From: Pseudomonadota bacterium
GTDB taxonomy: Bacteria; Pseudomonadota; Gammaproteobacteria; Burkholderiales; Rhodocyclaceae
Direction: 5' to 3'
NCBI GenBank assembly: GCA_026399515.1
Contig: JAPLQT010000134.1
Coordinates: forward strand, 1-64,000
Length of the DNA: 64,000 nt
A program made the translations under genes and the position numbers. The first letter of the stretch is position 1, and each line of letters begins with the position of its first letter. The notes beneath the pieces are model-generated. The model was given only the letters and a program-made list of their open reading frames with translations, ran no database searches and was not told the origin of the DNA. Below, piece after piece: positions 8,698 to 64,000 of the stretch.

Positions 8698-9046
8698 CGA
8701 ATTGCCCACATCCCACTCTTAAACCCTTTGCATCGTCGATGCCGAGGGCCTCGTCGTCTGCGGTCACGAGTGGCCCGACGTGACTTCAAGGTCTCAAATC
8801 GTGCCTGAACTGGTCTTTTCCCCTGACCACGTATGAAATAGACTCATTAATTCAATGCTGATTCTGTTAGAGGGCGCGCCCTTATGTTGGTCTCCGCTCA
8901 CAAAACGGACCACCGCTTTACTGCTTTCTCCGTTCCACTAGATCCCGAACCCCATCACCGAACTCCTCAGCCCGAACTGGATGGGTCCGCCAGCCGAATG
9001 GTCCGCTGACTGGCAGACTCATCCAGTTCGGGGTAAAATCGTGCGT
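8698..9046. other. Non-coding boundary before the ssp block
   Basis: No gene seen. It holds the 12-bp palindrome AGGGCGCGCCCT (8871-8882) and, near its end, the long inverted repeat described separately. Base composition rises sharply to high GC soon after, so this is the left edge of the transferred defence block. No cysteine desulfurase gene (sspA) is present here. Confidence 0.6.
8971..9032. promoter_or_regulatory. 13-bp inverted repeat upstream of sspB
   Basis: CCCGAACTGGATG (8971-8983) and CATCCAGTTCGGG (9020-9032) are perfect inverted copies 36 bp apart, ending 14 bp before the likely sspB start. This could be an operator for two dimers, a looped leader hairpin, or the scar of an element end. 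Confidence 0.55.
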
Positions 9047-9973
9047 ATGCGATCTAAACAAAAAAATAGCGGGCCGGAAGGGCACTTCTCTGGGCACGAG
9101 ACCTTCCCGCTCCGTCAAATGTGGCTCAAGAAGGCCTTCGACAGGGCCGACGCGGAGGGCCGGGTAAGCCGCGACATATTTTCCGACGACTCGGCCATCG
9201 CCAAGTTCGGAGTCGGGCGCAACATGGTTGGATCCATCCGCCATTGGGCCCTGGCCTGCGACGTCATCCGCGAAACCGATCCCAAAGGCCCCTTCACGCT
9301 CACCGAGACCGCTCGCGCGATATTCTCCGACGGCGGCCTAGACCCCTTCTCTGAAAATCCCGCCACCGCCTGGTACGCTCATTGGTGCCTCGCCGGCCGC
9401 GGCACGCGCGCGACGACGTGGTTCTGGCTCTTCAACGCGCTCTCCGCGCAGACCTTCACCCGCGAGGAGGCTCTCGGCCCGCTGTCCGAATACGCCGAGA
9501 TCGCGGCGCCGGGCAAGAAACTCTCGCGATCCACACTCGCCCGCGATTTGGACACCTGCCTGCGCGGATACGCCCCCCGGGCCGGCGCCGCCACAGCCGA
9601 GGAGGCCGCCGAGCCCATGCTCGGGGAACTCGGTCTCCTGCAAGAGGAGCGCAAGGGCGTGTTCTCCTTCCGGCGCGGCCCGAAAGCCACGCTCCCCGAC
9701 GCGCTGTTCGCCTGGGCCCTTCTGGACTTCTGGGACCGCACGGCGCCGGGCGAGACCTCCATGACGTTCGAGACCGTCGCCTACGCTCCCGGGGCTCCCG
9801 GCCGCGTATTCAAACTGGACGAGGACTCCGTTGCCGAGCGACTCTTCGCGCTTGGTGAGATAACAGGCGACCGGCTGCGCTGGACCGACACCGCCGGCCT
9901 GCGCCAGATACACCGCACCGACTTCGACCCTGCGCGCCTCAAGGTCCGCCTGCTAGGGGATGCCTATGTCTGA
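9047..9973 (+). CDS. sspB: SspB-like DUF4007 protein (phosphorothioation nickase)
   Basis: A 308-residue protein with the DUF4007 signature HFSGHETFPLRQMWLKKAF near the N-terminus, followed by winged-helix-like segments (AKFGVGRNMVGSIRHWALA). From published work as I recall it, SspB of the Ssp system carries DUF4007 and nicks DNA so that sulfur can be placed in one strand. I chose the ATG at 9047 because the in-frame ATG at 8981 lies inside the inverted repeat and the sequence between is unlike the family. The gene overlaps sspC and heads the rightward operon. GC content is much higher than in the left flank. Confidence 0.8.
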   Translation: MRSKQKNSGPEGHFSGHETFPLRQMWLKKAFDRADAEGRVSRDIFSDDSAIAKFGVGRNMVGSIRHWALACDVIRETDPKGPFTLTETARAIFSDGGLDPFSENPATAWYAHWCLAGRGTRATTWFWLFNALSAQTFTREEALGPLSEYAEIAAPGKKLSRSTLARDLDTCLRGYAPRAGAATAEEAAEPMLGELGLLQEERKGVFSFRRGPKATLPDALFAWALLDFWDRTAPGETSMTFETVAYAPGAPGRVFKLDEDSVAERLFALGEITGDRLRWTDTAGLRQIHRTDFDPARLKVRLLGDAYV

Positions 9974-12900
9974 GCCGAAACGCCCTGGCGCCGTGCGCGT
10001 CTCGCCGCACTTCGCCCGCTCGGCCCGCGTCGACGCCGACATCGGACGCCCTGGCGCCCTCGACAGCTACCTGCTCACCGCCACCGCCCGCGAGGCCCTC
10101 TCCACCATGGCCAGGCAGATCTCCGGGAGCACCCAAAGGGCCTTCACCTGGACCGGCCCCTACGGTGGCGGCAAGTCCTCCCTCGCCGTCGCGCTGGCCA
10201 CTGCCGTGGGCCGCGACGCTGGCTCGCGTCGCGAGGCGCGAAGGCTCCTCTCCGCCGACACCATCGCGGGCTTCACGCAGGCCTTTCCGGTCCGCAAGGG
10301 CGGCTGGCTGGTCGTCCCCGTCTCCGGAAGGCGGACCGGAGCCGTCCTCGAGATTGCGAAGGCCCTGCGCAAGGCGCTCGACAGGCCCGCCGCCGGGCGG
10401 GTCTCGGAGCAGTCCGTCATCGACGGGCTCCTGGCCGCGGCCGAGTCGGGAGACCACGACGGGATCCTCCTCCTCGTGGACGAGATGGGGAAACTCCTGG
10501 AGTCCGCGGCGGCGGGGGGCGACGACGTCCACTTCTTCCAGGAACTCGCAGAGTCCGCCTCGCGCAGCGAGGGACGCCTCGTCGTCGTGGGCATCCTCCA
10601 CCAGGCTTTCCGGCAATACGCCTCGCGCCTCGGGAGCGCCGCGCGCGACGAGTGGGCCAAGGTCCACGGCCGCCCCTCCGACATCCCCTTCGTCGCCACC
10701 GGCGCCGAGGTCGTCGAACTCATCGGCCGCGCCATCGAGCGCGACGCCCCGCGCCCGAGATCGGCCCCGCCGGCCGCCCCCGCGGCCGCCGCCATCGCCG
10801 GCAGACGCCCCGGAATGGGTGAGGGCCTGGCCGACCTCCTTGAGCGCTGCTGGCCCCTTCACCCGATCACGGCCGCGCTCCTCGGTCCGGCCTCGCGCCG
10901 GCAGTTCGGGCAGAACGAGCGCAGCGTCTTCGGATTCCTCTCCTCGCTCGAACCCCACGGGTTCCAGGATTTCCTCGCCGGATGGGACGGACAGTCGTCC
11001 TACGGCCCGGACCTCTACTGGGACTACCTGCGCGCCAACCTCGAGCCGGCAATCCTTTCCTCGCCGGACGGGCACCGCTGGGCCCAGGCTGCCGAGGCCG
11101 TCTCCCGCGCCGCGGCCAAGGGCGCCGGCCCCGCCGAGACCTCCCTGATAAAGGCTGTCGCCGTCATCGACCTTTTCCGGCCCGTCTCGGGCCTCGCCGC
11201 CGACGACGCAGTGCTGCGGTCGGCCTTGCCGTGGCTGGCCGACGACGCTTTCGCGGAGGCCCTGGAACGGCTGTCCCAGTGGCGCGTCGCCGTCTTCCGC
11301 CGCCACGTCGGGGCGTGGACCGTGTTCGAAGGCAGCGACTTCGACATCGAGAGCGCCGTCTCCAAAGCCCGCGGCTCGTTCGCGGAGCCCGACCTGGCCA
11401 CGCTGACGTCGATGGCCAACCTCCACCCGGTCGTCGCCAAGCGCCACTATCACCAGACGGGCACCTTCCGCTGGATGGGCGTGTCGCTGCTGCGCGCCGG
11501 CGACGCCGAGCGCTTCGCCGAAGACTACTCGCCCGAGGGCGGCGAGTTCGGCCGCTTCGCCCTCGTCCTTCCCGACCGGGACGCCCCCGCGCACGCGGCG
11601 GTCCGCGCCGCCAAGCGCGTCCCGCTGGACCCGCACCGCCCCGTCGTCTTCGGCGTGCCCCCCAACCACGCCCAGATCGCGGACCTCGGCGCCGAACTCA
11701 TCTCGCTGCGCATCGTGCAGACGACCCGCCCCGAACTCGAGGGCGATCCCGTGGCCCGCCGGGAGGTCTCCGCCCGACTCGTCGCCGTCAAGGGCGCCAT
11801 CGAGGAGGCCCTGCGCGTGGCCGTCTCCGACGCACAGTGGATCGCCAGCGGCGAGGCCCGCAAGGGCGTGCGCCTGTCCCCACTGGCCTCCGACATGGCC
11901 GACGCCATCTTCCGCGACGCCCCGAGGGTGTGGAGCGAACTGGTCAACCGCGACTCCCTTTCGACGAACAGCGTCAAGGCCCGACGCGATCTCCTGCACC
12001 GGATGGTTGACAAGGCCGGCGAGGAGAACCTCGGCCTGGAGGGCTTCCCGGCCGAGCGCGGCCTGCACGAGACGCTGCTGGCGACGACCGGAATGCACGC
12101 GAAGGATCCCGACACGGGCGCGTGGGTACTGCGCCCGCCCGTCCCGGGCGACGAGGCGGGCTTCCACGCCGTTTGGAGCGACACACTCTCCCTCGTCTCC
12201 GGCTCCGGGGCCGAGACGCGCGCAGACGAGATATACGCCCTGTGGGGGCGGCCTCCCTACGGCATCAAGGATGGGCTCAAACCGGTCCTGCTGACCGCCT
12301 TCGCCCTGGCCCACCCCGGCAACGCGGCCATCTACCGCGACGGGGTCTTCGTCCCCGCGCTCACCGACGCCGACGTCGACGAACTCCTCCAGGACCCGCG
12401 GCGGTTCTCCCTGCGCTGGGTCACCGCCGGCACCGAGCACGCTGCGGCGCTGGCCTCCCTGTCCGAGACTCTCGGGAAAATGGGCTTCCCGGCGGGCGAC
12501 GCGAGCCCCCTGGGGGTCGGCCGGGCCATGGTGGCCCTCGCTTTCTCGGTCCCGGCGTGGGCCCGCCGCACCCAGAGGCTGTCGCCCGAGGCGCGGGCCA
12601 CACGCGACGCCCTGCTTAGGGCCGACGATCCGCACAGACTACTTTTCATCGACCTGCCCGCGGTTCTCGGGGCGCGGCCGTCGGAACTCGGCGCCCGCCT
12701 TTCCGGTCCGCTCTCGGAACTCCTGACCGCGTACCCCGCGATGCTCAGGGCGGTCGACGCCAGAATGGCCGAGGCGCTGGACGCCCCCCGCGGGGACGAC
12801 GCGGAACTCTCGTCGAGGGCGTCCGCCGTCAGCCGGGCTACCGGCGATCTGCGCCTCGAAAGTTTCGCGTCGCGCCTGCAAAAGCGCGACGGGAGCCTGG

Positions 12901-13268
12901 CCGCCATAGAGGGCATCCTGAGCCTCGCCGCCAACAAGCCGCCGCGGGACTGGACGGATCTCGACATCGACGCCGCCACGGTCGCCGTGGCCGATCTCGC
13001 CTTGGCGTTCAGGAGGGCCGAGGCCCTGGTCGCCGTCGAGGGGCGCCCGCCCGGCCGCGAGGCGTTCGCCGTCGTCATCGGGGCCGCCGGCCGTTCCGAC
13101 TCCGTGACCAGAACCTTCGAGGTCGCCTCGCGCGACCGCAAGGCCGTCGACTCCGCCGCCGACGGCGTGCTGACCCTCCTGCGCGAGTCGGGGCTCTCGG
13201 GGGACCTGCTCATGGCCGTCCTTGCCCGCGCCGGCACCTCGCTGGCGAACGCGAAAGACGGAAAATGA
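9966..13268 (+). CDS. sspC: SspC-like P-loop ATPase
   Basis: A 1100-residue ATPase. Walker A is TGPYGGGKSSLAVALA (about residues 60-75) and Walker B is ILLLVDEMGKLLE (about 160-172). The long remainder is without recognised motifs. In the Ssp system the large ATPase works with SspB and SspD in phosphorothioate modification of one DNA strand. The ATG at 9966 has AGGGG six bases upstream; a second ATG at 9960 overlaps that site. It overlaps the sspB stop by 8 bp and the sspD start by 4 bp (ATGA), so the three genes are translationally coupled. Similarity to BrxC/PglY-type ATPases is possible, but its partners argue for Ssp. Confidence 0.8.
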   Translation: MSEPKRPGAVRVSPHFARSARVDADIGRPGALDSYLLTATAREALSTMARQISGSTQRAFTWTGPYGGGKSSLAVALATAVGRDAGSRREARRLLSADTIAGFTQAFPVRKGGWLVVPVSGRRTGAVLEIAKALRKALDRPAAGRVSEQSVIDGLLAAAESGDHDGILLLVDEMGKLLESAAAGGDDVHFFQELAESASRSEGRLVVVGILHQAFRQYASRLGSAARDEWAKVHGRPSDIPFVATGAEVVELIGRAIERDAPRPRSAPPAAPAAAAIAGRRPGMGEGLADLLERCWPLHPITAALLGPASRRQFGQNERSVFGFLSSLEPHGFQDFLAGWDGQSSYGPDLYWDYLRANLEPAILSSPDGHRWAQAAEAVSRAAAKGAGPAETSLIKAVAVIDLFRPVSGLAADDAVLRSALPWLADDAFAEALERLSQWRVAVFRRHVGAWTVFEGSDFDIESAVSKARGSFAEPDLATLTSMANLHPVVAKRHYHQTGTFRWMGVSLLRAGDAERFAEDYSPEGGEFGRFALVLPDRDAPAHAAVRAAKRVPLDPHRPVVFGVPPNHAQIADLGAELISLRIVQTTRPELEGDPVARREVSARLVAVKGAIEEALRVAVSDAQWIASGEARKGVRLSPLASDMADAIFRDAPRVWSELVNRDSLSTNSVKARRDLLHRMVDKAGEENLGLEGFPAERGLHETLLATTGMHAKDPDTGAWVLRPPVPGDEAGFHAVWSDTLSLVSGSGAETRADEIYALWGRPPYGIKDGLKPVLLTAFALAHPGNAAIYRDGVFVPALTDADVDELLQDPRRFSLRWVTAGTEHAAALASLSETLGKMGFPAGDASPLGVGRAMVALAFSVPAWARRTQRLSPEARATRDALLRADDPHRLLFIDLPAVLGARPSELGARLSGPLSELLTAYPAMLRAVDARMAEALDAPRGDDAELSSRASAVSRATGDLRLESFASRLQKRDGSLAAIEGILSLAANKPPRDWTDLDIDAATVAVADLALAFRRAEALVAVEGRPPGREAFAVVIGAAGRSDSVTRTFEVASRDRKAVDSAADGVLTLLRESGLSGDLLMAVLARAGTSLANAKDGK

Positions 13269-14104
13269 GCGAACGCCATCTCCTGGGACTCTCTGGCGGA
13301 CGCGACAGCGCGGCCCTGGCAGTGCACGTCCGCCAGACCCGGCCCGAACTCGACGTCGAATACTTCTACACCGACACCGGCAAGGAACTGCCGGAGGTCT
13401 ACGAGTTCCTCGGCCGCCTCGAGGGTTTCCTCGGGAAGCCCATCCTCCGGCTCAACCCGCGGCGCGACTTCGACTTCTGGCTGCGCGAATACGACCACTT
13501 TCTGCCGTCGCCGCAAACCCGCTGGTGCACTCGCCAGTTGAAACTGGCCCCCTTCGAGCAGTGGATCCGCCCCATGCTCAACGCCGGCGACAAAGTCTTC
13601 ACCTACGTGGCCATCCGCGCCGACGAGGAGTACCGCGAGGGCTACTCGTCGAAGCACCCAAACCTCCGCGTCTCACTGCCCTTCCGCGAGGAAGGCATAG
13701 ATAAAGCAGGAGTCTTGGAAATCCTGGAATCCTCCGGGGTCGGACTGCCGCGCTACTACGACTGGCGCAGCCGATCCGGCTGCACTTTCTGCTTCTTCCA
13801 GCAGAAGATCGAGTGGGTGCGCCTGCGCGAGCGCCACCCAGACGCCTTCGAGGAGGCCAAGGCCTACGAGAAGACCGCTCTCGAGCACGGCTCCCCGTTC
13901 ACCTGGAGCAAGGGTGAGCCCCTCGACGAACTCGAGAACCCAGAGCGCGCGCGCCAGATTCGCGACGAGCACGAGAAGAGGCGCCTGCGCGAACTAGGGA
14001 AGCGCCGACCCAACCCCCTGCGGCCGTGGGAGGACAACATGGACCTCGACGAACTCTACGGCGAGGACGAGGGCGGCGGCGCCTGCGTCGTCTGCCACAA
14101 GTGA
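13265..14104 (+). CDS. sspD: SspD-like PAPS-reductase/ATP-pyrophosphatase
   Basis: A 279-residue protein of the PAPS reductase / DndC group. The PP-loop is LGLSGGRDSAALAVH at the N-terminus. Cysteines that could hold an Fe-S cluster or carry sulfur occur in RWCTRQLK, GCTFCFFQQ and the C-terminal ACVVCHK. The family activates the phosphate backbone with ATP and transfers sulfur supplied by a cysteine desulfurase. It is the last gene of sspBCD and is coupled to sspC by ATGA. Because no dndD or dndE is present and DUF4007 and a large ATPase are, SspD is a better assignment than DndC. Confidence 0.82.
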   Translation: MSERHLLGLSGGRDSAALAVHVRQTRPELDVEYFYTDTGKELPEVYEFLGRLEGFLGKPILRLNPRRDFDFWLREYDHFLPSPQTRWCTRQLKLAPFEQWIRPMLNAGDKVFTYVAIRADEEYREGYSSKHPNLRVSLPFREEGIDKAGVLEILESSGVGLPRYYDWRSRSGCTFCFFQQKIEWVRLRERHPDAFEEAKAYEKTALEHGSPFTWSKGEPLDELENPERARQIRDEHEKRRLRELGKRRPNPLRPWEDNMDLDELYGEDEGGGACVVCHK

Positions 14105-21580: not shown

Positions 21581-23088
21581 GCCGCGCCCCTCCAAAACGG
21601 GTTCTCGACGAAGGAGCACGCGTCGGAAAGCCTCCGCAGCAGCCCCAGCCCGAGAAGGCGGGACTCGAGCCTCGCCCTGTTGTTGCTCAAATCCTCCTGG
21701 TCGACCACGTTCTCCCGTACCAAGGCGGAGCCCTCCGCCTCACCGACGACGATGCCGTAGCGCCGGTGAATCTCTCGGAGAAACTCACCGTATTCCATGC
21801 GCCCCTCCACTACCGTCACGACGAGCGTCTTGAGCAGTCTGTCGTTGGGCGCGTAACGCATCCTGCGGCTCAGCCGGCGGGAACTGAGGCCCACCGCCCT
21901 CGACCAGATCGAATGGATCTTGCCGAAATGCTGGCCGTGCCGTTTTTCGGCGGCCTCGGCGAGCAGCGAGACGAGCCTCTCCGGCGCGGTTCCGATCTCC
22001 TTCTCCTCGGGCGGCCATTGAAACAGGTCTCTGAGAACGCCAGCGCAGGCCGCCGACGGATCGGCGGCCACAAGGGCCGCGCCCCATTCCGGGGCCGCCT
22101 TGGCCGACTCCACGAACGCGCGGACGGCGCGCAGGGACACGGCCTGGTTGGACTGCCAGGAGTCCGCCGACAGGGCCCTGACCTTCGACCGGTCGCGGGA
22201 AACCACCTCGCACAGAAACTCGACGGGATCGGTGTCCCCGGCCGCCGCCTTGCCGCGCTCGAGGAAGTAGAGCAGGAGGTTGAGCCCGGCCGAAACGACG
22301 AGATGGTCCACGGCGTCTCCGGCAGGCATGTCCCTAGACAGGATCGCGAGCCAGTCCTCGGCGAGCCGGTCGAAGCGTGGAAGCGAGGTGTGCGGCAGGT
22401 AGCCGGACGTCCGCTCGTTGGGCGCCGGCTGGGTCTGTCCCTGCATCGCCCTTGCGAGACGGTTCAAGGGGGTCGTCGGATTGAATAGCCGGGAAACCAG
22501 CAGCGGGCCCAACTCGGCCGCCCTGGAGGAACGGCAGAGCATCAGGTAGAGAAGTTCGCCCGTGCGGCCGAAGAAACGCCGGTCGTTGCTCGCAGAACCG
22601 TCTGCCTTAACCCGTATGTCCTCGTAGAGCGCGTCCGGGCCGTAGGGGAAAACGAACTTGGAACTCCAGCGCTTGTTGCTGTTGGCCTCGTAGGCCGACG
22701 AGCGCAGCAGCGCGACCGCCTTGGCGAAGTCCTCGAAGGACAGGAAGGTCTCCCGAAGATGCCCCAGGCCGCCCACCGCTAGGTCGCCGGCGTCCTTTTT
22801 GAAGGACTCCTCCCAAGCCTTCCACTTGTCGGCGTCGGCGTCGCGGCGGAGCCTTATGGCGTCGAGATTGGGGTTGTTAAACAGCAGGGCCCGCAGGGTG
22901 ATCTGCCAGGACGGCCGGTACCGGACCCGCCCGTCGGCATCCTGCCGGAGCGGCGCGGTCGATTTTGCCCGCAGAATGCCCAGGAACTCCAGGAGCGCGA
23001 GGTGCGGCAACTGCTCGTCGTAGAGCCTGTGCCCCCATATGTGCTCGTCGACGGCGAAGTCGACCTCCTCGACGCGCTCCCTGCTCAT
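21577..23088 (-). CDS. sspG: SspG/DptG-like restriction protein
   Basis: A 503-residue protein beginning MSRERVEEVDFAVDEHIWGH; the start overlaps the sspF stop (ATGA). No catalytic motif is visible. Identification comes from its place between an SspF-like ATPase and the giant FtsK-like SspH, the same F-G-H order as DptFGH in Dnd loci, and from its size. The C-terminus (LSNNRARLESRLLGLGLLRR) is helical. Confidence 0.72.
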   Translation of the reverse strand: MSRERVEEVDFAVDEHIWGHRLYDEQLPHLALLEFLGILRAKSTAPLRQDADGRVRYRPSWQITLRALLFNNPNLDAIRLRRDADADKWKAWEESFKKDAGDLAVGGLGHLRETFLSFEDFAKAVALLRSSAYEANSNKRWSSKFVFPYGPDALYEDIRVKADGSASNDRRFFGRTGELLYLMLCRSSRAAELGPLLVSRLFNPTTPLNRLARAMQGQTQPAPNERTSGYLPHTSLPRFDRLAEDWLAILSRDMPAGDAVDHLVVSAGLNLLLYFLERGKAAAGDTDPVEFLCEVVSRDRSKVRALSADSWQSNQAVSLRAVRAFVESAKAAPEWGAALVAADPSAACAGVLRDLFQWPPEEKEIGTAPERLVSLLAEAAEKRHGQHFGKIHSIWSRAVGLSSRRLSRRMRYAPNDRLLKTLVVTVVEGRMEYGEFLREIHRRYGIVVGEAEGSALVRENVVDQEDLSNNRARLESRLLGLGLLRRLSDACSFVENPFWRGAA

Positions 23089-24968
23089 GCCCCGACCCTC
23101 ACACTGACACGCCTGACGGCCCCTTGGCCGTCCCGGTCGTTGATCTCTATGAACGACAGCCCCAGCGTGCCGTCGCCCTCCGCGGGCTCGCCCCCCTCCG
23201 GTTCCGGTGTCGCCCGCGCCGCCTCGGCCTGCCTCAGCAGTCGCGCCTTGAAGGCGAGCAGATCCTCGAGACACTCGTTGGAGAAACTGCCCGGCAGGGC
23301 GCCCGAAGCCACCCGGCACAGGAACTCGAACCGCACAGGCGTCAAATCGAGCAGGACCGGCTGGGAACCCGGCGCAACGCACACGTCCAGACACGGCTTG
23401 CCCGTCTTCGAGTCCGCCCGGATCGCCATGCCGACTCCGCCCGTCCTGCGGGCCGGAATCTCGGTTTCGCAAAGGGAACCGACCCGCGAGCCCGACGCCC
23501 CCCCGCCACCGGAGACGAAAATCTTGTCGGCGTTCTCCAAAAGCAGTCCGGTCATCACCCGGTTGAGGCCCCGGACTGCGGCGGACCGCGTCTTCTCGTC
23601 CACCGACCTCCGGTTCTCGACCGCCTCGACCAGGGCTAGGTACTCGCCGGCGTGCGCGAAGGAAGTCAGACCCCAGAACGGGTAGGACTCGCCCGCGTCT
23701 CCCGGCAGGGTGAAAAAGAGGCGTCGCCTCTGATCCGACAGTCTGTCGCGAAACGAGTCGTCGCCATCCCCGTCCCGAGCCCCTTCCTCCCCTTCGAGGT
23801 AACGCCTCTGGGCCGCGAGGAACCCGGCCGAGGCGCCGTAAAGCGGATCGGAAGCCACCAGACGGCCGAACGCCTCGGAGAGGCGGGAGTCATCGGATCC
23901 GTAGACCAGCAGGCCGTCTATGCCGTTGGCCGTCTCCTCGCCCACGCCGAAGGACGACAGTGTCCTGAACACCGGATATTTGGAAAGGCTCTTCTTGGTC
24001 AGGTTCACCCCGAACACGTTGCGGTAGACGCTGGCCCTGTCAGCGTCGCCCCTGTGCTGGATTCCGGCGACGTCGGCGCAGGTCATCAGCCCCTCGCGGG
24101 CCGCCGGATGTCCGAGCAGCGCGTTGGCGGCCAGCGCCAGCAGGTCGCGCACCGGCAGGTGCTCGCCGTTGAGTCTCGACAGTTCGACAATATCTCCGAG
24201 CCGCCGGACGAAAAGCCCGCCGTCCTCCCTGCCCAGCATCCTGGCCCTGTTCTCCGAAATCGGGCAGCGCCTGTCCGCCGAATCGAGGGGACAGCCCGCG
24301 CACCGCTCCCATTCGGGATGATCGGCCACCGCAGCGATGACCGACTCCATCGCGCGCCGGTCGGCGCCCCTGCTGAGATCGAACACGCCGAGCCTGGGAT
24401 ACGAGGAGCCCGGATCGAGAAACGCCGACTGAATCGGATCGCGGAGCGGAGAATCCATCCCGAGCCTGCGGCCCCTCGTCCTTAGCCGATCCAGTATCTG
24501 CCCGTGGTTGGCCGCCACCACGAACGAGACGGAGTCATCGCCGGCGGCCGACCTCTCGAGCCCCTCCAGGACCTCGTCCCCCTCTGTCTCCCCGAGTTCG
24601 CTCAGATCCTTGACGAACACGACCTCGCGTCCTCGGAACGGGAGACGCTTGAGGGGGACGCCGCCCGCCCATGTGGCCGAAGCGCCACCCAGACGTTCCC
24701 AAAGGGAACGGCAATGGTATGTCTTTCCGTCGCCGGCCGTCCCGGCCACCAGAATCGAACCGCCGATCCCATCGGTGAAGAACGCCTCCATCTCCGCAAG
24801 CCTGGGAGGCGGAAGCGAAATCGGTCTGACCTTGGCTCTGGCCAGCGCCTTGGCAACGTGTTCGTCGAAGAGGTTTCCGTTGGTCGAAAGCGGCCCGTAG
24901 TTGCGCAGAAAGCGCACCCATGTTAGCGCGGGCGGCGACGCGACTCCCGCAGTGGTCTCGTTCGGCAT
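23085..24968 (-). CDS. sspF: SspF/DptF-like P-loop ATPase
   Basis: A 627-residue P-loop NTPase. Walker A is GSILVAGTAGDGKTYHCRSL (about residues 75-94) and a Walker-B-like strand is REVVFVKDLSELGE. A Cys cluster, ERCAGCPLDSADRRCP (about 216-231), may bind metal. It is the first gene of the leftward sspF-sspG-sspH operon. A G10 tract on the coding strand lies 12-22 bp before the ATG, overlapping the region expected to control translation. The divergent neighbour is lexA. Confidence 0.77.
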   Translation of the reverse strand: MPNETTAGVASPPALTWVRFLRNYGPLSTNGNLFDEHVAKALARAKVRPISLPPPRLAEMEAFFTDGIGGSILVAGTAGDGKTYHCRSLWERLGGASATWAGGVPLKRLPFRGREVVFVKDLSELGETEGDEVLEGLERSAAGDDSVSFVVAANHGQILDRLRTRGRRLGMDSPLRDPIQSAFLDPGSSYPRLGVFDLSRGADRRAMESVIAAVADHPEWERCAGCPLDSADRRCPISENRARMLGREDGGLFVRRLGDIVELSRLNGEHLPVRDLLALAANALLGHPAAREGLMTCADVAGIQHRGDADRASVYRNVFGVNLTKKSLSKYPVFRTLSSFGVGEETANGIDGLLVYGSDDSRLSEAFGRLVASDPLYGASAGFLAAQRRYLEGEEGARDGDGDDSFRDRLSDQRRRLFFTLPGDAGESYPFWGLTSFAHAGEYLALVEAVENRRSVDEKTRSAAVRGLNRVMTGLLLENADKIFVSGGGGASGSRVGSLCETEIPARRTGGVGMAIRADSKTGKPCLDVCVAPGSQPVLLDLTPVRFEFLCRVASGALPGSFSNECLEDLLAFKARLLRQAEAARATPEPEGGEPAEGDGTLGLSFIEINDRDGQGAVRRVSVRVGA

Positions 24969-45729: not shown

Positions 45730-46257
45730 ACCGCAGGATCGGCGAACAACCCGGCTCGACGGGCCTGTTGGCTGTATGCCCTCATGTTGGTCAAGCAACT
45801 GCGTGTCACCATGCAAGTCATTGACCAGTTCGATCGCGAGATCGCTGATCTTGCGCCGAAGCTGCCAGACTATTATCTGTTTGAAAGATTGCCTGGCTCC
45901 GGTTAGCATTTGGCGCCACGGTTGCTCGCCGCGTTCGGCGAGAATCGCCAATGCTTCAAGGGCGCCGACGAGCTACAGAAATATGCGGGCATCGCCCCGG
46001 TCACCGAGCGCATCGGCAAGAAGCATTGGGTCCATTGGCGATGGCAGTGTCCAAAGTTCTTACGCCAGACCTTTGTTGATTGGGCGGGGCAGACAATCAA
46101 CAAATCGTTCTGGGCCGGCACCTATTACCGGCAGCAGAACTCGGACGCCGTACAACGAAACAAACTATCTCAACGCGTTAAGAAAGCAGGGCTCGCCGCC
46201 CCTCAAGTATCTCATATCGAATACATAGATCGCTTGACGGACTACCTCCGGGCGTGA
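45730..46257 (+). pseudogene. IS110-family transposase remnant
   Basis: Only the C-terminal half of an IS110 transposase remains: VIDQFDREIADLAPKLPDYY, ERLPGSG, an in-frame TAG at 45904, then HLAPRLLAAFGENRQCFKGA and KYAGIAPVTERIGKK. The stop sits where IS110 proteins often have Gln or Pro. It is different in sequence from the intact IS110 copy at 759-1736. Confidence 0.85.
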
Positions 46258-46415: not shown

Positions 46416-46970
46416 TTACTTGCCTACAATTTTAATAACTGTGCCCGTTATTTCATTCAAATATACGATTGCACCGGGAATGCTGCCGAATTGTTCCTGT
46501 ATCTCAACTGCCATCTCCTCCAAATCTGCCAGTGAAAATTTTTTCCAATCGCCACTGACGCTGTTGCTTTTTCTTTGCTCAAAGCTTCGAGCCAGTTCAT
46601 CTTGCGGCGGATCTAACAAAATTATCACACTTGAACTATTTATCGCAAATTCGCTCTTGAGCAGCTCGGCGTGTTCAACAATATAGGTTGGGCCAATATT
46701 CCTTAGCGATAAACGAAATGTTCTATCAATACTACCCGGCGATTCTTCCACTTCCGTCATATATTTAGCATGCCACTGATCGAGTTCTATATGCGGTATA
46801 CCCAATTCAAATGACAATTCTTCCGCCAACTTGGTCTTACCGCAGCCCATACATCCAACAATGCAAATTGTGTGCATGTGCTTGCCACGAAAGACTTTCT
46901 TAATTGCATCCACGTCCTCGGGCGAAAATAGAGCTCGCCCAACCAATGAGCTAATATATTCTTTATCCAT
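46416..46970 (-). CDS. P-loop kinase-like NTPase
   Basis: A 184-residue protein with Walker A CIVGCMGCGKTKLAEEL near residue 35 and IPHIELDQWHA and VIILLDPPQDELARSFEQRK downstream, the layout of adenylate/shikimate-type kinases. The substrate is unknown. It has lower GC than its neighbours and is downstream of the RiPP locus on the same strand, so a role in that pathway is possible but unsupported. Confidence 0.65.
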   Translation of the reverse strand: MDKEYISSLVGRALFSPEDVDAIKKVFRGKHMHTICIVGCMGCGKTKLAEELSFELGIPHIELDQWHAKYMTEVEESPGSIDRTFRLSLRNIGPTYIVEHAELLKSEFAINSSSVIILLDPPQDELARSFEQRKSNSVSGDWKKFSLADLEEMAVEIQEQFGSIPGAIVYLNEITGTVIKIVGK

Positions 46971-46996
46971 AATATACGTATGCAAAAACTATGCAC

Positions 46997-47104
46997 AGGC
47001 TCCTTCTGTTCTTTTACAACTTCACTTTCTTTTCGCGGGACTTCCGCGAACTCGTCATCGCTGATGTATTCAATAGAATCCTCCAAAGATAACGCTCCTG
47101 ACAC
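46997..47104 (-). pseudogene. Fragment of BipA/TypA C-terminus
   Basis: ALSLEDSIEYISDDEFAEV, then PRKESEVVKEQKEP resembles the last ~35 residues of the ribosome-associated GTPase BipA/TypA (LExAxEfIxDDELvEVTP...). Nothing else of the gene is present. The open frame continues over the start of the kinase gene and is not expected to be real there. Confidence 0.5.
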
Positions 47105-47547
47105 TCTATCTTCCTGCGGGTGATTTACGCGTGGGTATCGAGTTAGATATCAACCCTCTCCATCTGATCATGCGCTGGCCACTTCGTCCAGCAGTTCGCC
47201 TATGACCTCACGCCGGTGGCTGGCCTGACGCTGGTGGGCCATACAACCTAGACGCGCTGCGGGGAATCGAACTTCAAGCGGCTCTATGTTGCACTGGTAG
47301 CCAACAACTATGTGCTTCGCAGCTGCGTCGGTGCGCTGGCGTATGGCAAGAGCAACTACTGCGATGAGTTCTTCACAAGCAATTGCTGGACATCGGCTTG
47401 CTGCCTTTGAGTCCGACGCTGCGCGGGCAGGCGAGCGTAGTGGGGAACGCTGTCTGCGACTGAGTGAAGTGCTGAGAGACTAGCGCATGCCCTGCTGGCC
47501 GCCCAAAAACTCCAAGACGAATACCTACAGGCCGCTCGCACTCAAAA
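47105..47547. other. Unassigned stretch downstream of the RiPP precursor gene
   Basis: No intact gene. Short frames such as LYVALVANNYVLRSCVGALA look like decayed coding sequence that I cannot identify. No peptidase or transporter for a RiPP is present. Confidence 0.45.
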
Positions 47548-47757
47548 CTATCCGAACTTGCACTTACATGTGCAGGTGCATCTACACGGACACGTGCAAT
47601 TCGGCCCCGCCCAAATCTTATCCTTACGCTCAGCCGGAAAATCCGAGGATTCGTTTTCGGATTCTACAGACCTCAAATCGTTTAGGAATAGTGTGCACAT
47701 TGTTGAATCAACCTGCACAAACGGCTTAATTGTCGGCACTACAAACTCATTAAACAT
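47548..47757 (-). CDS. Putative RiPP precursor with (Cys-X)7 core
   Basis: A 69-residue peptide. The leader-like N-terminal ~52 residues (MFNEFVVPTIKPFVQVDSTM..., acidic ESENESSDF) end in WAGPN and are followed by CTCPCRCTCTCKCKFG: seven cysteines at alternating positions 54 to 66. It starts inside the last codons of the radical SAM gene (19-bp overlap) with GGAGAG upstream, so the two are translationally coupled. The pairing with a PqqD-SPASM enzyme points to a thioether-type (sactipeptide/ranthipeptide-like) product. A metal-binding peptide is the alternative. Confidence 0.7.
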   Translation of the reverse strand: MFNEFVVPTIKPFVQVDSTMCTLFLNDLRSVESENESSDFPAERKDKIWAGPNCTCPCRCTCTCKCKFG

Positions 47758-49160
47758 CTCTTCTCTCCATCATAGTTATTAACGAATTGTGCACGATCAG
47801 TCGAGGAATTGATCGCCTGCATTGGGCATGGCCCAGAGCAGTTTGTCTCGTAGATGCATCCTAGACATCCATCCTTTACTTTTCTCAGCCAATCAACTCG
47901 AGGGTTACCCTTACCCTTCCAGATGTCTTGAAAGCGCGTTTGCTTCAAATCTCCAACCTCATAATCGCGGTAGAAGAGGCACGCGCGGACTTTCCCATTT
48001 GCGGCAATCGCAAGACAGGTGCGGCCGGCACCACATCCCATAATGTCGGGAAACACCGTACCGCTCTTTACGCATCCTAAAAATGGTTTTCTTTCCCACG
48101 TTCCTTCAGGAGCGGATATCAAGAGACTTTCGCCATACTGATCAGTCTTATCGTTGATTAGACTCGTTAGACTCAAATGTTCCTCGGTGTCGAGTTCCTC
48201 AACTGAGGTACCTCTCCCCACCTTGCAAATTTGATCAAGCTGGATTTCGTCTGCGCCTAAACTTGCTGCTAAGTCGATCAGCGCTTCAGTCTCGGCAAAG
48301 TTTTCTTTCATAATGGTAGGCCCAATTCCAACCAAGGGCAGACCTGCTCTTTTCAGCAATTTTACTGCTGTGACTGCTCTGTTAAACGATCCGCTGACAC
48401 CGCGTATCTCGTCATGCGTAGCCTCACAGCTACCGTCAATGCTCACCCTAACGTGTCTTACACCCAACCGCACAACCTCGTGTACTAATTTGTCGTTAAA
48501 GAACCACCCATTCGAGCTAATCATTACTACGATGCCGAGTAGTTGGCAATGCTCCAGAATTTTCAAGAAATCTTTACGCGCAAATGGTTCACCGCCAAGA
48601 AAATGTATATAAAAGACTCGCATACTAGCCAAGTCGTCTATTATTTTGAAAACCTCGGTGGTGCTCAACTCGTCCGCTAGTGCTTTCCCCGATGAGGAAT
48701 AACACTGCTTGCATTTAAGGTTGCAGATGCCCGTAATATCCCACCACACTGATAACGGCGCTCGCAGGAAACTCGAGGTCGATGATTCTTCGGCAAAGAC
48801 TTGATTGGTTGGGTCAGATTCCACGGACTTGCAGCTAAGGTGTTCCGGATCACAGACGCCGCTTTCAACTATGCCGGAATCTTCTAGTTGTTCCAAGTAA
48901 GTGGAAATGGCTAATTCTTGATCATCAGTTAGCAACCCGAAAACACGCCTAACGTGGCCTATGATTATCGAATATGGGAGTTCATCATTCGACAAGATAT
49001 GAGCAATGAATGCGCCAGTCGGGTTAACCCGACTAATGGAACCAGTCATCTTGTTGAAGATGAGACCGCCGAAATCCTCCTCACGAATGACATGCCCTTT
49101 TGCCAAACGATATGTCCGAAGACCAACTGGAGTTCTAGACTCAATACTTAGTGATCTCAT
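47739..49160 (-). CDS. PqqD-SPASM radical SAM peptide maturase
   Basis: A 473-residue protein. Residues about 15-100 form a PqqD-like precursor-recognition domain (RLAKGHVIREEDFGGLIFNK, SRVNPTGAFIAHIL). The radical SAM core begins at WDITGICNLKCKQCYSSSGK (C-x3-C-x2-C), followed by FYIHFLGGEPFARKDF. The SPASM region holds further cluster cysteines in GCGAGRTCLAI, VRACLFYRD and GCLGCIYETNCSGPCP. Such enzymes install thioether or carbon-carbon links in ribosomal peptides. The 3' end overlaps the candidate precursor gene. Confidence 0.88.
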   Translation of the reverse strand: MRSLSIESRTPVGLRTYRLAKGHVIREEDFGGLIFNKMTGSISRVNPTGAFIAHILSNDELPYSIIIGHVRRVFGLLTDDQELAISTYLEQLEDSGIVESGVCDPEHLSCKSVESDPTNQVFAEESSTSSFLRAPLSVWWDITGICNLKCKQCYSSSGKALADELSTTEVFKIIDDLASMRVFYIHFLGGEPFARKDFLKILEHCQLLGIVVMISSNGWFFNDKLVHEVVRLGVRHVRVSIDGSCEATHDEIRGVSGSFNRAVTAVKLLKRAGLPLVGIGPTIMKENFAETEALIDLAASLGADEIQLDQICKVGRGTSVEELDTEEHLSLTSLINDKTDQYGESLLISAPEGTWERKPFLGCVKSGTVFPDIMGCGAGRTCLAIAANGKVRACLFYRDYEVGDLKQTRFQDIWKGKGNPRVDWLRKVKDGCLGCIYETNCSGPCPMQAINSSTDRAQFVNNYDGEKRCLMSL

Positions 49161-60886: not shown

Positions 60887-61930
60887 TTAAGCAGCAACGC
60901 CGGATACGGCCCTGGATAGTGACCTGGCAAGCGATTCCCCGACCATATGAAATCCGCGCACGTTTCCCATGGCCGAATCATCGAGAAGGATAAGGTTGTG
61001 ATTTGGGAACTTTTGGCTAATCGCCTGCCGGTAGAAGGGTGCACCCCCTCCCGTAAGGATGATCAAGTCGATGTCGGCGGCATCCTGAAGAGCACTCTTC
61101 AGCTTATCCGCAGCATCCCGGATGACGGATTCCCCCATCTTCTGCGCCGCATCGAGTTTCACCGGTTTCCCGTACATGGTGAATTTCGAACCGGTCATTA
61201 GGGCCGCGTCGATGCGCCGCATGATGGAAGATTCAGTTGCGGTCGAATCGATGGTTTTGATGACCTCCTTGGCCATGGCGTTGATAACCGACGACATGCC
61301 GCGCATCGCCGCGCCGTATTGCCGGGTGCTTTTGCCATGACAGACGAGCCAGTCAAAAGTGTTGTAGCCAACATCCACCACCAGGGCGACCGGATAGCTC
61401 GTGCCGGGTTTGGAAGAAGAGATGTGTTTCATATACGACCCAAACGGCTGCGGATATATCTCGCATCGCCGAACTTCAATCGTCTTGCCGCTTGAATTGA
61501 TGGTGTGGGGGCCAGTGAACTGGTCGGCGAGAGTGTTCTTGTACTTGGTAAAGGTGTTCAACGGCAGTCCGAGGATGAGGATGTCGATGAAGCTATCAGG
61601 GATATCCTGGGCAATGTAGTTCAAGGCCCCATAGAGGCGCGCCCGGTAGGCGTCTGAAATTGCAAAGTTGAGGTCCATCACGGTCCCCTCGAAATTCGGA
61701 TCGATAGCCGCCATAACTTCCTTGCCGACCTCATATTGACGGTCTTCAATGCCGACGAAAAAGGTGTTGCGCTTCTTCAGGAAGCTGGCATTGATGTTCA
61801 TGTGAGATGTGTATGGCGGAGACAGCGACGGGAACCGGTCGCATAGCACCTCACCATTGGCGCCCGAACCTAGAGAATATTTCACATGTCCGTAGCCAAC
61901 ATCCACCGCGCGCACAATCATCTTCTTCAT
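60887..61930 (-). CDS. parM: ParM/StbA-like actin-type segregation ATPase
   Basis: A 347-residue actin-fold protein. The phosphate-1 loop is VRAVDVGYGHVKYSLGSG at the N-terminus; the phosphate-2 and connecting regions are VALVVDVGYNTFDWLVCHG; the adenosine region is DLIILTGGGAPFYRQAI. These place it with plasmid ParM/Alp proteins rather than MreB. It should polymerise to push replicated plasmids apart. The ATG at 61930 was chosen over 61972 because MKKMIVRAVDVGYG fits family starts. It strongly suggests a plasmid or a plasmid-derived element. Confidence 0.87.
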   Translation of the reverse strand: MKKMIVRAVDVGYGHVKYSLGSGANGEVLCDRFPSLSPPYTSHMNINASFLKKRNTFFVGIEDRQYEVGKEVMAAIDPNFEGTVMDLNFAISDAYRARLYGALNYIAQDIPDSFIDILILGLPLNTFTKYKNTLADQFTGPHTINSSGKTIEVRRCEIYPQPFGSYMKHISSSKPGTSYPVALVVDVGYNTFDWLVCHGKSTRQYGAAMRGMSSVINAMAKEVIKTIDSTATESSIMRRIDAALMTGSKFTMYGKPVKLDAAQKMGESVIRDAADKLKSALQDAADIDLIILTGGGAPFYRQAISQKFPNHNLILLDDSAMGNVRGFHMVGESLARSLSRAVSGVAA

Positions 61931-62056
61931 TGCATCCCCCAAGGCCACCAAAAGTTGATCGTATTTTGGCAAATTAAACCCAGTGAGACTGCCTTAATTC
62001 CCCTCGAAATCGAGGCAGATGGAGCGGAAATGGATTCAACGCCGCCTGAGCGTGCT

Positions 62057-63092: not shown

Positions 63093-63290
63093 ATGAAGTG
63101 CAATGTTGTCCCCCTTAAGCCGCAGTTCCAAAGCCACATCCACGCGCATCAGCAACCGACGCCCGCCGACGTCGGGGCCTCGTCACGCCCGTTTCAAGTG
63201 ATTGTCCATGAGTCCCCAGGTGACAACTGGGTGGAAATCCTTCCACCCAGGAGAGTAAATGAACCATTCTTGAAGGAGGTAACCCTATGA
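63093..63290 (+). CDS. Small protein coupled to the right-hand integrase
   Basis: A 65-residue protein: MKCNVVPLKPQFQSHIHAHQ and ending ILPPRRVNEPFLKEVTL. AGGAG precedes its ATG, and its stop overlaps the integrase start (ATGA) with GAAGGAGGT inside its 3' end. Possibly a recombination directionality factor or a translational leader; unrecognised. Confidence 0.6.
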   Translation: MKCNVVPLKPQFQSHIHAHQQPTPADVGASSRPFQVIVHESPGDNWVEILPPRRVNEPFLKEVTL

Positions 63291-64000
63291 GTTCCAGACG
63301 CACATCCCCAGCTTTCATGGCGGAATTGGACCGCATCATCGACGTCCCTAACCGCAAGGCCTACAACGACAGGGGGAACCCTATACGTGACTGCGCCCAA
63401 GCCACCCGCGACGAGCGGAGACGGGCATTGCACCAGGTCTTCTGCGACCTGCGAGGGTTGGGCTATCGCTTGCCCAGCCCCTTGTCACTCCGTACAAAGC
63501 ACGTGGAGGCACTGACCGAGCTTTGGCTCAAGAAGAAGCAAGCCTCCCGCAGCATCCATACCCAGTTGTCCATGCTCAGGGTATTCTGCCACTGGATCAA
63601 GAAGCCCAACCTGGTTGGGGATATTGACCAATACTTCGAGCCGGAACAAGTGCACCGGTCGCTAGTCTGCACGGTGAACAAGGCCTGGCAACCGAACGGC
63701 ATCGATGTGCCAGAGGTTATCGCCAAGGCTAAGGCAATGAACGCGGTCATGGGAATTCTCCTCGAGCTGCAGGATAAGTTCGGGTTGCGCACCAAAGAGT
63801 CCATTGAACTCAGCCCCGCGACAAACTACGACCGGGCGAATGGCCTGCTACATGTGGTGAAAGGTACCAAAGGCGGCAAGCCGCGCGTCATCGTTGTGGA
63901 AACGGCAGAGCAACGCCAGGTGCTTGAAGCTGCCATTCAACTCTCCCTGAAGAATGGTGACCGGATGCGTTGGGCACGCTTGACCTGGAAACAAGCACAA
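63287..64000 (+). CDS. Tyrosine integrase, N-terminal 238 residues
   Basis: Partial; continues past the window. The core-binding part (VEALTELWLKKKQASRSIHT, LSMLRVFCHWIKKPN) is followed by the start of the catalytic domain with Arg in DKFGLRTKESIELS and VVKGTKGGKPRVIVV. The C-terminal His/Arg/Tyr residues lie beyond the edge. It has an excellent ribosome-binding site (GAAGGAGGT). It is different from the integrase at 3272-4336. Confidence 0.85.
   Translation, partial: MSSRRTSPAFMAELDRIIDVPNRKAYNDRGNPIRDCAQATRDERRRALHQVFCDLRGLGYRLPSPLSLRTKHVEALTELWLKKKQASRSIHTQLSMLRVFCHWIKKPNLVGDIDQYFEPEQVHRSLVCTVNKAWQPNGIDVPEVIAKAKAMNAVMGILLELQDKFGLRTKESIELSPATNYDRANGLLHVVKGTKGGKPRVIVVETAEQRQVLEAAIQLSLKNGDRMRWARLTWKQAQ

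Follow-up and report, generated by a model that had tools for sequence, protein, structure and literature searches.

Does a short peptide that ends in seven alternating cysteines serve as the substrate of the radical SAM enzyme whose gene it overlaps? The question is raised by two genes on the minus strand of a 64,000-nucleotide stretch of Rhodocyclaceae DNA (contig JAPLQT010000134.1), referred to here as the window. The original prediction, made from the nucleotide sequence, treated the two genes as the precursor and maturase of an undescribed-looking RiPP. Our analysis leans modestly toward a RiPP-type pair, in which an RRE-guided maturase acts on a precursor whose alternating cysteines are the target, probably for thioether formation.

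The overlapping genes and their products

The radical SAM/SPASM enzyme gene (47739..49160, minus strand), identified by Pfam and NCBIfam matches, encodes the 473-residue proposed maturase. The proposed precursor gene (47548..47757, minus strand) is a 69-codon open reading frame (ORF) that starts inside the enzyme gene, and the 19-bp overlap (47739-47757), the strand, and the lengths agreed with those originally reported. The precursor ATG is preceded, at a distance of 5 nt, by a Shine-Dalgarno-like GGAGAG site within the enzyme gene (47763..47768, minus strand). Searches of Pfam, NCBIfam, PADLOC, and PHROGs assigned the small ORF to no family. Its proposed leader (residues 1-53; 47599..47757, minus strand) was indeed acidic and cysteine-poor, with 9 Asp/Glu residues versus 5 Lys/Arg and a single Cys. 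When codon usage of the leader was scored in six frames, its own frame was highest (0.124, followed by an antisense frame at 0.068), and this own-frame value was greater than that of all 2000 mononucleotide shuffles, so the leader is coding-like. The proposed core, CTCPCRCTCTCKCKFG (residues 54-69; 47551..47598, minus strand), makes up the last 16 residues of the peptide and contains the seven alternating cysteines described earlier. The X residues of this (CX)7 pattern are, in order, T, P, R, T, T, K, and K, and the core terminates in KFG. The (CX)7 DNA pattern had a single occurrence in the window and was found in 0 of 100 dinucleotide-preserving shuffles.

The assignment of the larger gene to the SPASM radical SAM enzymes was borne out. 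Pfam analysis of the 473-residue protein gave matches to Radical_SAM (3.9e-24) and SPASM (6e-8), and a CX3CX2C radical SAM cluster motif (C146/C150/C153; 48702..48725, minus strand) was read directly from the sequence. The SPASM domain was matched by Pfam over residues 376-435 (47856..48035, minus strand) and extends C-terminally from there to include C441. In an eight-sequence alignment, C146, C150, C153, C432, C435, and C441 all occupied invariant columns, and the full set of seven SPASM cysteines was present as judged by eye. The enzyme thus has the intact cluster motifs of the SPASM radical SAM maturases in sactipeptide and ranthipeptide systems.

The PqqD-type N-terminus that had also been proposed stands as probable. 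The PqqD/RRE-like region, which we propose as the leader-binding part, spans approximately residues 27-99 (48864..49082, minus strand). Comparison of the N-terminal 116 residues with NCBIfam at E ≤1 yielded four models only, all of them PqqD-type or MftB, with E values of 0.0019-0.21 that each fell under the curated cut-off; the Pfam PqqD match (E 0.1-0.15) was likewise under its cut-off. AF2 models of the N-terminus were of low confidence (pLDDT 41.5 and 46.2), with one of them showing strands followed by three helices, and a Foldseek search using the low-confidence model of this region returned no significant match. Judged by the uniform identity of the four profile matches, the N-terminus is probably a PqqD-like RRE.

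Genomic context and the origin of the tail

A decayed IS1380-family transposase, represented by its N-terminal part (47186..47424, plus strand), is convergent with the precursor gene. This remnant was detected by tblastn (1.2e-11) and by profile (1.8e-6) in searches of that region alone, and its fragments matched a Cupriavidus IS1380 transposase at 1e-3 in a plasmid-wide tblastn search. The similarity ends at 47424, 123 bp short of the precursor stop, and the resulting scar bounds the locus. Beyond the remnant come a P-loop ORF at 46416-46985 and, at 45910-46257, a fragment of an IS110-type transposase; an S1/P1-nuclease-like gene is located upstream of the enzyme-precursor pair. Ssp defense genes, an actin-like protein, and an integrase domain elsewhere in the window fit a mobile region. 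No exporter or protease was recognized next to the pair among the neighbors tested, which agrees with the earlier reading of the locus, and no recombinase was recognized adjoining it, just transposase remnants.

We searched for relatives of both genes. The best non-self matches to the enzyme were 133 bits (32% identity) in 395 genomes of the family, 141 bits (32% identity) in 369 genomes of the class, and 133 bits (32% identity) in 398 genomes of the phylum, with these three samples overlapping partly. Identity was highest among the first 199 family genomes, where it reached 37% across about 190 residues that make up part of the core. Plasmid searches with the enzyme provided 440 records, all below 60% identity and six of them covering ≥80% of the query, and a single-protein viral scan gave four pattern matches with no relatives among them. 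The window enzyme looks like an isolated SPASM branch because the samples searched gave no close relative. For the precursor, four genomes of the genus (its own genome included) contained no relatives, and the best non-self match in 170 family genomes had an E value of 0.017. The precursor matches in 13 family genomes besides the window's own (E 0.017-0.046) were taken as chance, and plasmids gave no match at E ≤1. Orthologues of either gene, and with them any conservation of the tail, were not found in these samples.

Searches for the tail itself gave a similar picture in bacteria. Among 3506 small ORFs at the scanned loci, strict tails of ≥5 CX units occurred only in the window gene itself, which was retrieved four times. 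A loose filter for hidden (CX)n peptides beside distant relatives of the enzyme flagged 9 of 27 non-window loci, all with scattered cysteines only, and the strict alternating-tail test found none at those loci. Scanning of DNA for (CX)7 yielded at least 119 loci in bacterial genomes and at least 120 in viral contigs, and the matches listed in both sets were mostly simple hexanucleotide repeats when inspected by eye. None of the bacterial loci (at least 119) contained a relative of the window enzyme by tblastn or by profile.

These observations bear on the possibility that the small ORF arose by accident or rearrangement at the insertion sequence scar, in which case the tail would be a degenerate hexanucleotide repeat or foreign DNA that became attached, and the real substrate of the enzyme would have been lost. 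The nearby end of the IS1380 remnant, the failure to find conservation, and the repeat-like appearance of most listed bacterial (CX)7 matches all point in this direction. So do the codon score of the 16-codon tail, which is slightly negative in all six frames with its own frame not the best, and the antisense frame that is also open across the tail. The good Shine-Dalgarno site and the coding-like leader argue against an accidental origin, as do several properties of the tail itself. Tandem Repeats Finder reported nothing at a score of ≥30 between 47300 and 47900; both TGC and TGT are used among the seven Cys codons, and no two of the three Thr codons are alike. Comparison of the tail with transposases in every frame gave nothing better than a tblastn match at chance level (E 0.74), and the antisense frame lacked a plasmid match at E ≤1. 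The visible RNA hairpin does not explain the tail either, since its folding energy of -22.6 kcal/mol equals the mean (-22.6) for synonymous variants of the sequence; the fold has a z value of -1.47, with 18 of 200 shuffles equally stable. On balance, we judge an accidental frame unlikely.

The maturase-precursor interpretation as a whole is partly supported. Three features favor a functional pair, namely the Shine-Dalgarno-coupled overlap, a leader that looks coding, and a probable RRE; the facts that the pair is a singleton, that an insertion sequence scar adjoins it, and that no export or cleavage gene was recognized beside it count against this interpretation.

Alternating-cysteine tails beside a phage enzyme family

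Profile searches of the ORFs at the viral (CX)7 loci (at least 120) revealed a SPASM-type enzyme at two of them, L226 and L251, and this result opened a phage lead. The two enzymes are 48% identical and are members of the phage radical SAM family phrog_1802. Pfam matched Radical_SAM and not SPASM in the one phage enzyme analyzed; we label the family SPASM-type on the strength of seven cysteines, arranged as in SPASM domains, that do not vary across nine of its members. By sequence comparison, the window enzyme is outside this family, with a BLASTP identity of 34% over 104 residues and a profile match over 139 columns only.

To count tails at the phage loci, the best 80 of 172 relatives were examined and grouped into 34 clusters at 85% identity, of which 27 representatives had >4 kb of upstream sequence and were counted. 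The rule demanded an ORF on the same strand that ends in an alternating tail containing at least three cysteines and two kinds of X. Such a tail (e.g., CNCNCACDC) was present at 19 of the 27 nonredundant loci, compared with 1 of 27 on the opposite strand and 0 of 17 loci of other viral radical SAM enzymes. Flanking sequence at the 17 control loci did not exceed about 3 kb, and the count was therefore repeated with equal 3-kb flanks, giving 16 of 27 phage loci versus 0 of 27 for the opposite strand and 0 of 17 for the other viral enzymes. Residue shuffling of the phage loci produced 1.71 positives of 27 on average and never more than 6. One of the matches (L434) is a 43-residue ORF whose alternating run, CICKCLC, may be a chance occurrence, and requiring ORFs of ≥60 residues reduced the count to 18 of 27. 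The eight missed loci, which were read afterwards, comprised four with pure CNCNCNC-type C-terminal tails (left out by the rule of two different X residues), two with N-terminal (CX)8-9 runs, one with a split CxC, and one with nothing (L403); 23 of the 27 loci are positive when pure tails are admitted. A looser earlier rule, at least four alternating cysteines anywhere, had identified 35 of the 80 loci. The X positions of 23 hand-picked tails, excluding L434 and the pure CN tails, were occupied by N (45), D (25), and A (19) out of 103.

The association was also evident when the search proceeded from tail to enzyme. The pattern N-C-N-C-x-C-x-C-x-C retrieved at least 120 viral stretches, of which 119 loci were analyzed; by demanding N-C-N-C this pattern favors the phage family, and its loci overlap partly with those of the forward count. 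Among the matches listed, the run was ≤15 residues from the C-terminus of an ORF of ≥60 residues at 100 of the 119 loci, and 84 of these 100 had a same-strand match to the enzyme-family profile. When at least 4 kb of downstream sequence was present, 51 of 52 phage ORFs with C-terminal tails were accompanied by a same-strand family-profile enzyme among the matches listed, with three of the 51 profile matches scoring 68-105 bits and perhaps representing more distant enzymes. When the tail ORFs in the same listed matches were clustered, the enzyme accompanied 35 of 36 clusters at 85% identity and, at 40%, 14 of 15. The enzyme was found at 7 of the 19 loci in which the run was not C-terminal, and the 187 viral loci from the other two pattern scans contained family profile matches at L226 and L251 only, in both cases among the matches listed.

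The original prediction had suggested looking for (CX)n endings in frames near homologous SPASM enzymes; in the phage family, an analogous search was strongly positive. This result supports alternating-cysteine tails as targets of such enzymes, and by analogy these tails are probably something that SPASM-type enzymes modify. The window contains the corresponding combination, a strict alternating-cysteine tail and a SPASM-type enzyme on the same strand, and its tail is a plausible substrate because tails of this form accompany SPASM-type enzymes in phages. The phage tails are likewise strict and mostly C-terminal. The two settings differ in other respects: X is mostly N, D, or A in the phages and T, P, R, or K in the window; the candidate substrate is a fibre-like phage protein in the former and a short leader peptide in the latter; and the phrog_1802 enzymes have just about 70 residues before the radical SAM core. 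Any chemistry common to the window pair and the phage systems would be by analogy between them.

The same comparison affects the idea that the peptide is an encoded, phytochelatin-like metal binder with the radical SAM enzyme acting on its leader alone or on another target. Strict CXC spacing suits soft-metal thiolate binding, and the tail has basic and Thr spacers, both of which are compatible with such a role. Translational overlap with a maturase-type enzyme is difficult to reconcile with it, no metal-resistance gene was recognized among the neighbors tested, and phage tails of the same form accompany SPASM-type enzymes. We regard an independent metal-binding peptide as very unlikely.

Possible chemistry and relation to known systems

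For the preferred reading, a maturase acting on the alternating cysteines, a thioether pathway can be outlined. The acidic leader would be held by the probable RRE at the enzyme N-terminus while the CX3CX2C radical SAM cluster generates a 5'-deoxyadenosyl radical, which would abstract hydrogen at the X residues of the (CX)7 tail. The cysteines, their thiolates probably positioned by a SPASM cluster, would then bond to the activated carbon to form a thioether. Repetition of this reaction along the tail would lead to a loss of 2 Da per link, and the geometry may permit fewer than seven links. Cleavage would presumably fall to a protease coded elsewhere. The data themselves establish the gene coupling, the intact catalytic motifs, the coding-like leader, and the strong association of alternating-cysteine tails with a different SPASM-type family in phages. 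Each chemical step is proposed because of its analogy to the sactipeptide and ranthipeptide enzymes described in the available text of PMC8326336.

The reaction at the tail might instead not be thioether formation and could involve a C-C or C-N bond, epimerization, oxidation, or a backbone change at X, leaving the cysteines free to bind metal. Among the matches listed, which provided scores for 25 of 72 matched NCBIfam models, the top match of the window enzyme was the mycofactocin maturase (TIGR03962; 161.9 bits versus a cut-off of 265), followed by NirJ-type heme d1 enzymes, all of them far below cut-off, and this order is in keeping with another chemistry. None of the curated thioether-maturase models among these listed matches was above its cut-off (StsB, 116/625 bits; SkfB, 106/300 bits; AlbA, 60/850 bits), so that the enzyme falls far under each of them. 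A repeat-motif peptide reported in the available text of PMC9062424 receives cyclopropylglycine, which again illustrates a different outcome. In favor of thioethers, the sactisynthase SkfB (6efn; 4.1e-24 over enzyme residues 129-345) ranks first by sequence among relatives of solved structure, and many spaced cysteines usually mark thioether peptides (PMC8326336). A nonthioether modification of the tail thus appears rather unlikely to us, and thioethers remain the preferred product.

The sactipeptide maturases SkfB and AlbA share with the window enzyme a radical SAM core, a C-terminal cluster domain, and probably an RRE-like N-terminus. To our knowledge, known sactipeptide precursors lack strict Cys alternation, and we know of no thioether family that uses Cys at every second residue. 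The mycofactocin precursor ends in Val-Tyr; the window core ends in KFG, and the enzyme did not reach the TIGR03962 cut-off for MftC. Ranthipeptides such as freyrasin, SCIFF, and NxxcA contain Cys thioethers formed by SPASM enzymes, with Asp, Asn, or Thr as the acceptors described in the available part of PMC8326336; the window core has Thr and the alternation, and lacks Asp and Asn. In the TVGG/TvgB system (PMC9062424), a single radical SAM enzyme likewise modifies a motif that recurs in the C-terminal portion of its peptide; that reaction is valine cyclopropanation on TVGG repeats, a motif without Cys, unlike that of the window.

The nearest published precedent that we found for the window pair is SSN Cluster 59 of PMC9062424 (2022). 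There, a radical SAM enzyme is described together with a recombinase and a peptide in which an Asp-Cys motif recurs as many as six times, without an assigned product. Going by that description, Cluster 59 resembles the window in its few-gene locus and its repeats of a Cys dipeptide motif, and it differs in having Asp as X and a recombinase neighbor; the window core has no DC, and no recombinase was recognized adjacent to it. The existence of these Asp-Cys peptides beside radical SAM enzymes, as far as the accessible text describes them, partly weakens the suggestion that the window pair is undescribed. A literature search from 2019 onward for Asp-Cys peptides with radical SAM enzymes or RiPPs, most subscription journals being outside its coverage, found only PMC9062424, and a search for CXCXC peptides with the same coverage found nothing. 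A scan of viral sequences for (Asp-Cys)4 identified 68 stretches and one locus (L343) with an enzyme matching the search profile; L343 was not counted because its DC match lies on the strand opposite a His/Asn-rich frame, and a single-sequence scan with its enzyme retrieved itself only. A Photobacterium locus (L029) was considered as another Asp-Cys locus, and no such peptide was seen there.

If the window tail is modified, SPASM enzymes handle cysteines at every second residue, and a single form of substrate would be shared by carriers as unlike as a free peptide and a phage fibre-like protein. The pair alone is an isolated example by an insertion sequence scar; together with the phage family, it is one of two settings for an alternating-cysteine candidate substrate. 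The phage half offers many natural candidate substrate-enzyme pairs, including those of the named Achromobacter phages JWF and 2-1, so the chemistry can be tested directly. More tentatively, and with distinctly less confidence than in the window pair itself, strict (CX)n tails at a mature C-terminus may be a general SPASM radical SAM target, on stand-alone peptides such as that of the window and on phage fibre tips, yielding a rigid polythioether or metal-loaded end cap. Such a cap occurs in no RiPP class known to us. The phage tail would then be a terminal device, sometimes situated directly before a Hint or S74 domain whose self-cutting would expose it.

Sequence features of the phage carriers are relevant to this proposal. 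Among the four ORFs with C-terminal tails that were tested, those of L226 and L405 clearly matched tail-fibre families; the tail ORFs of L443 and L446 had weaker tail-fibre matches that ranked behind families of unknown function. A literature search combining radical SAM enzymes and phage fibres, which covered few subscription journals, returned no (CN)n fibre tails among the matches listed. At the 19 loci where the run was not C-terminal, four runs led straight into Hint-like sequence and four into S74-like sequence. Hint and S74 domains cut themselves off, and with their self-removal the tail would become the mature C-terminus. The fragment common to L496, L525, and L544 matched Pfam Peptidase_S74 above the cut-off, and the Hint matches in the L576 and L590 fragments were under it. 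In gp028 of Achromobacter phage JWF, a Pfam Hom_end_hint match above the cut-off begins at the last Cys of NCNCDCNCNCSC. Near the phrog_1802 enzymes, a 2OG-Fe(II) oxygenase was recognized in three of the four neighboring ORFs tested.

Fibre-like proteins with alternating-Cys tails in phage

A fibre-like phage protein carrying a C-terminal (C-N/D/A)n tail, encoded on the same strand as a radical SAM enzyme, constitutes a recurring phage module. This arrangement was present in the retrieved viral loci L226 (2688-7447), L405 (5606-9308), L443 (5584-9383), L399 (7622-9344), L395 (2999-4704), and L446 (5938-9341), where the enzyme is phrog_1802. Further copies were found among the loci of the viral scan for the N-C-N-C-x-C-x-C-x-C pattern (L477-L593). 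Among the matches listed, 51 of the 52 tail ORFs with 4 kb of downstream sequence had a match to the enzyme-family profile, and three of the four neighbouring ORFs tested matched a 2OG-Fe(II) oxygenase.

The phage-family enzyme of L392 (5031-6762) is followed by a protein with an N-terminal (CX)8-9 run, Gly-rich thereafter and lacking a C-terminal tail; in L393, the protein following the enzyme likewise possesses (CX)8-9 at its N-terminus in place of the tail. At L343 (3553-5792), a phage radical SAM enzyme lies next to a protein of 259 aa with a very high Cys content (MACAKGSCTGCSGTCSGGCAGGCKGC...).

Cys runs preceding Hint- and S74-type sequences

The alternating-Cys run immediately precedes a Hint-type sequence in Achromobacter phage JWF gp028 (L472 3844-5295; Pfam above cut-off), L473 (3853-5295, by motif), the L576 and L590 fragments (Pfam match below cut-off), and L512 and L517 (by motif). 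It directly precedes an S74-type sequence in L496, L525, and L544 (Pfam, one sequence for all three) and L560 (by motif). Given this placement, self-cleavage would leave the run as the mature C-terminus.

Another repeat tail and other window content

In Thermus phage Cumys 13 and 12 (L474, 3976-6266), a protein with terminal HGD/HSD/HTD repeats lies just ahead of a gene annotated as an rSAM protein, whose own C-terminus also carries HGD-like repeats. This is another pairing of repeat tail and radical SAM enzyme, reminiscent of the His-Xaa-Ser systems.

The window also encodes homologues of SspB, SspC, SspD, and SspF (8981-14104 and 23085-24968), components of a phosphorothioation-type defence system. 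The frame at 46787-47104, adjoined by a P-loop ORF, is possibly a gene fragment. Its start is similar to the C-terminal end of TypA/BipA, with a BipA_C match (E 0.0046) that falls short of the cut-off. An actin-like (ALP_N) protein (60887-61972) and an Integrase_1 domain (63287-64000) are consistent with a plasmid or integrative element.
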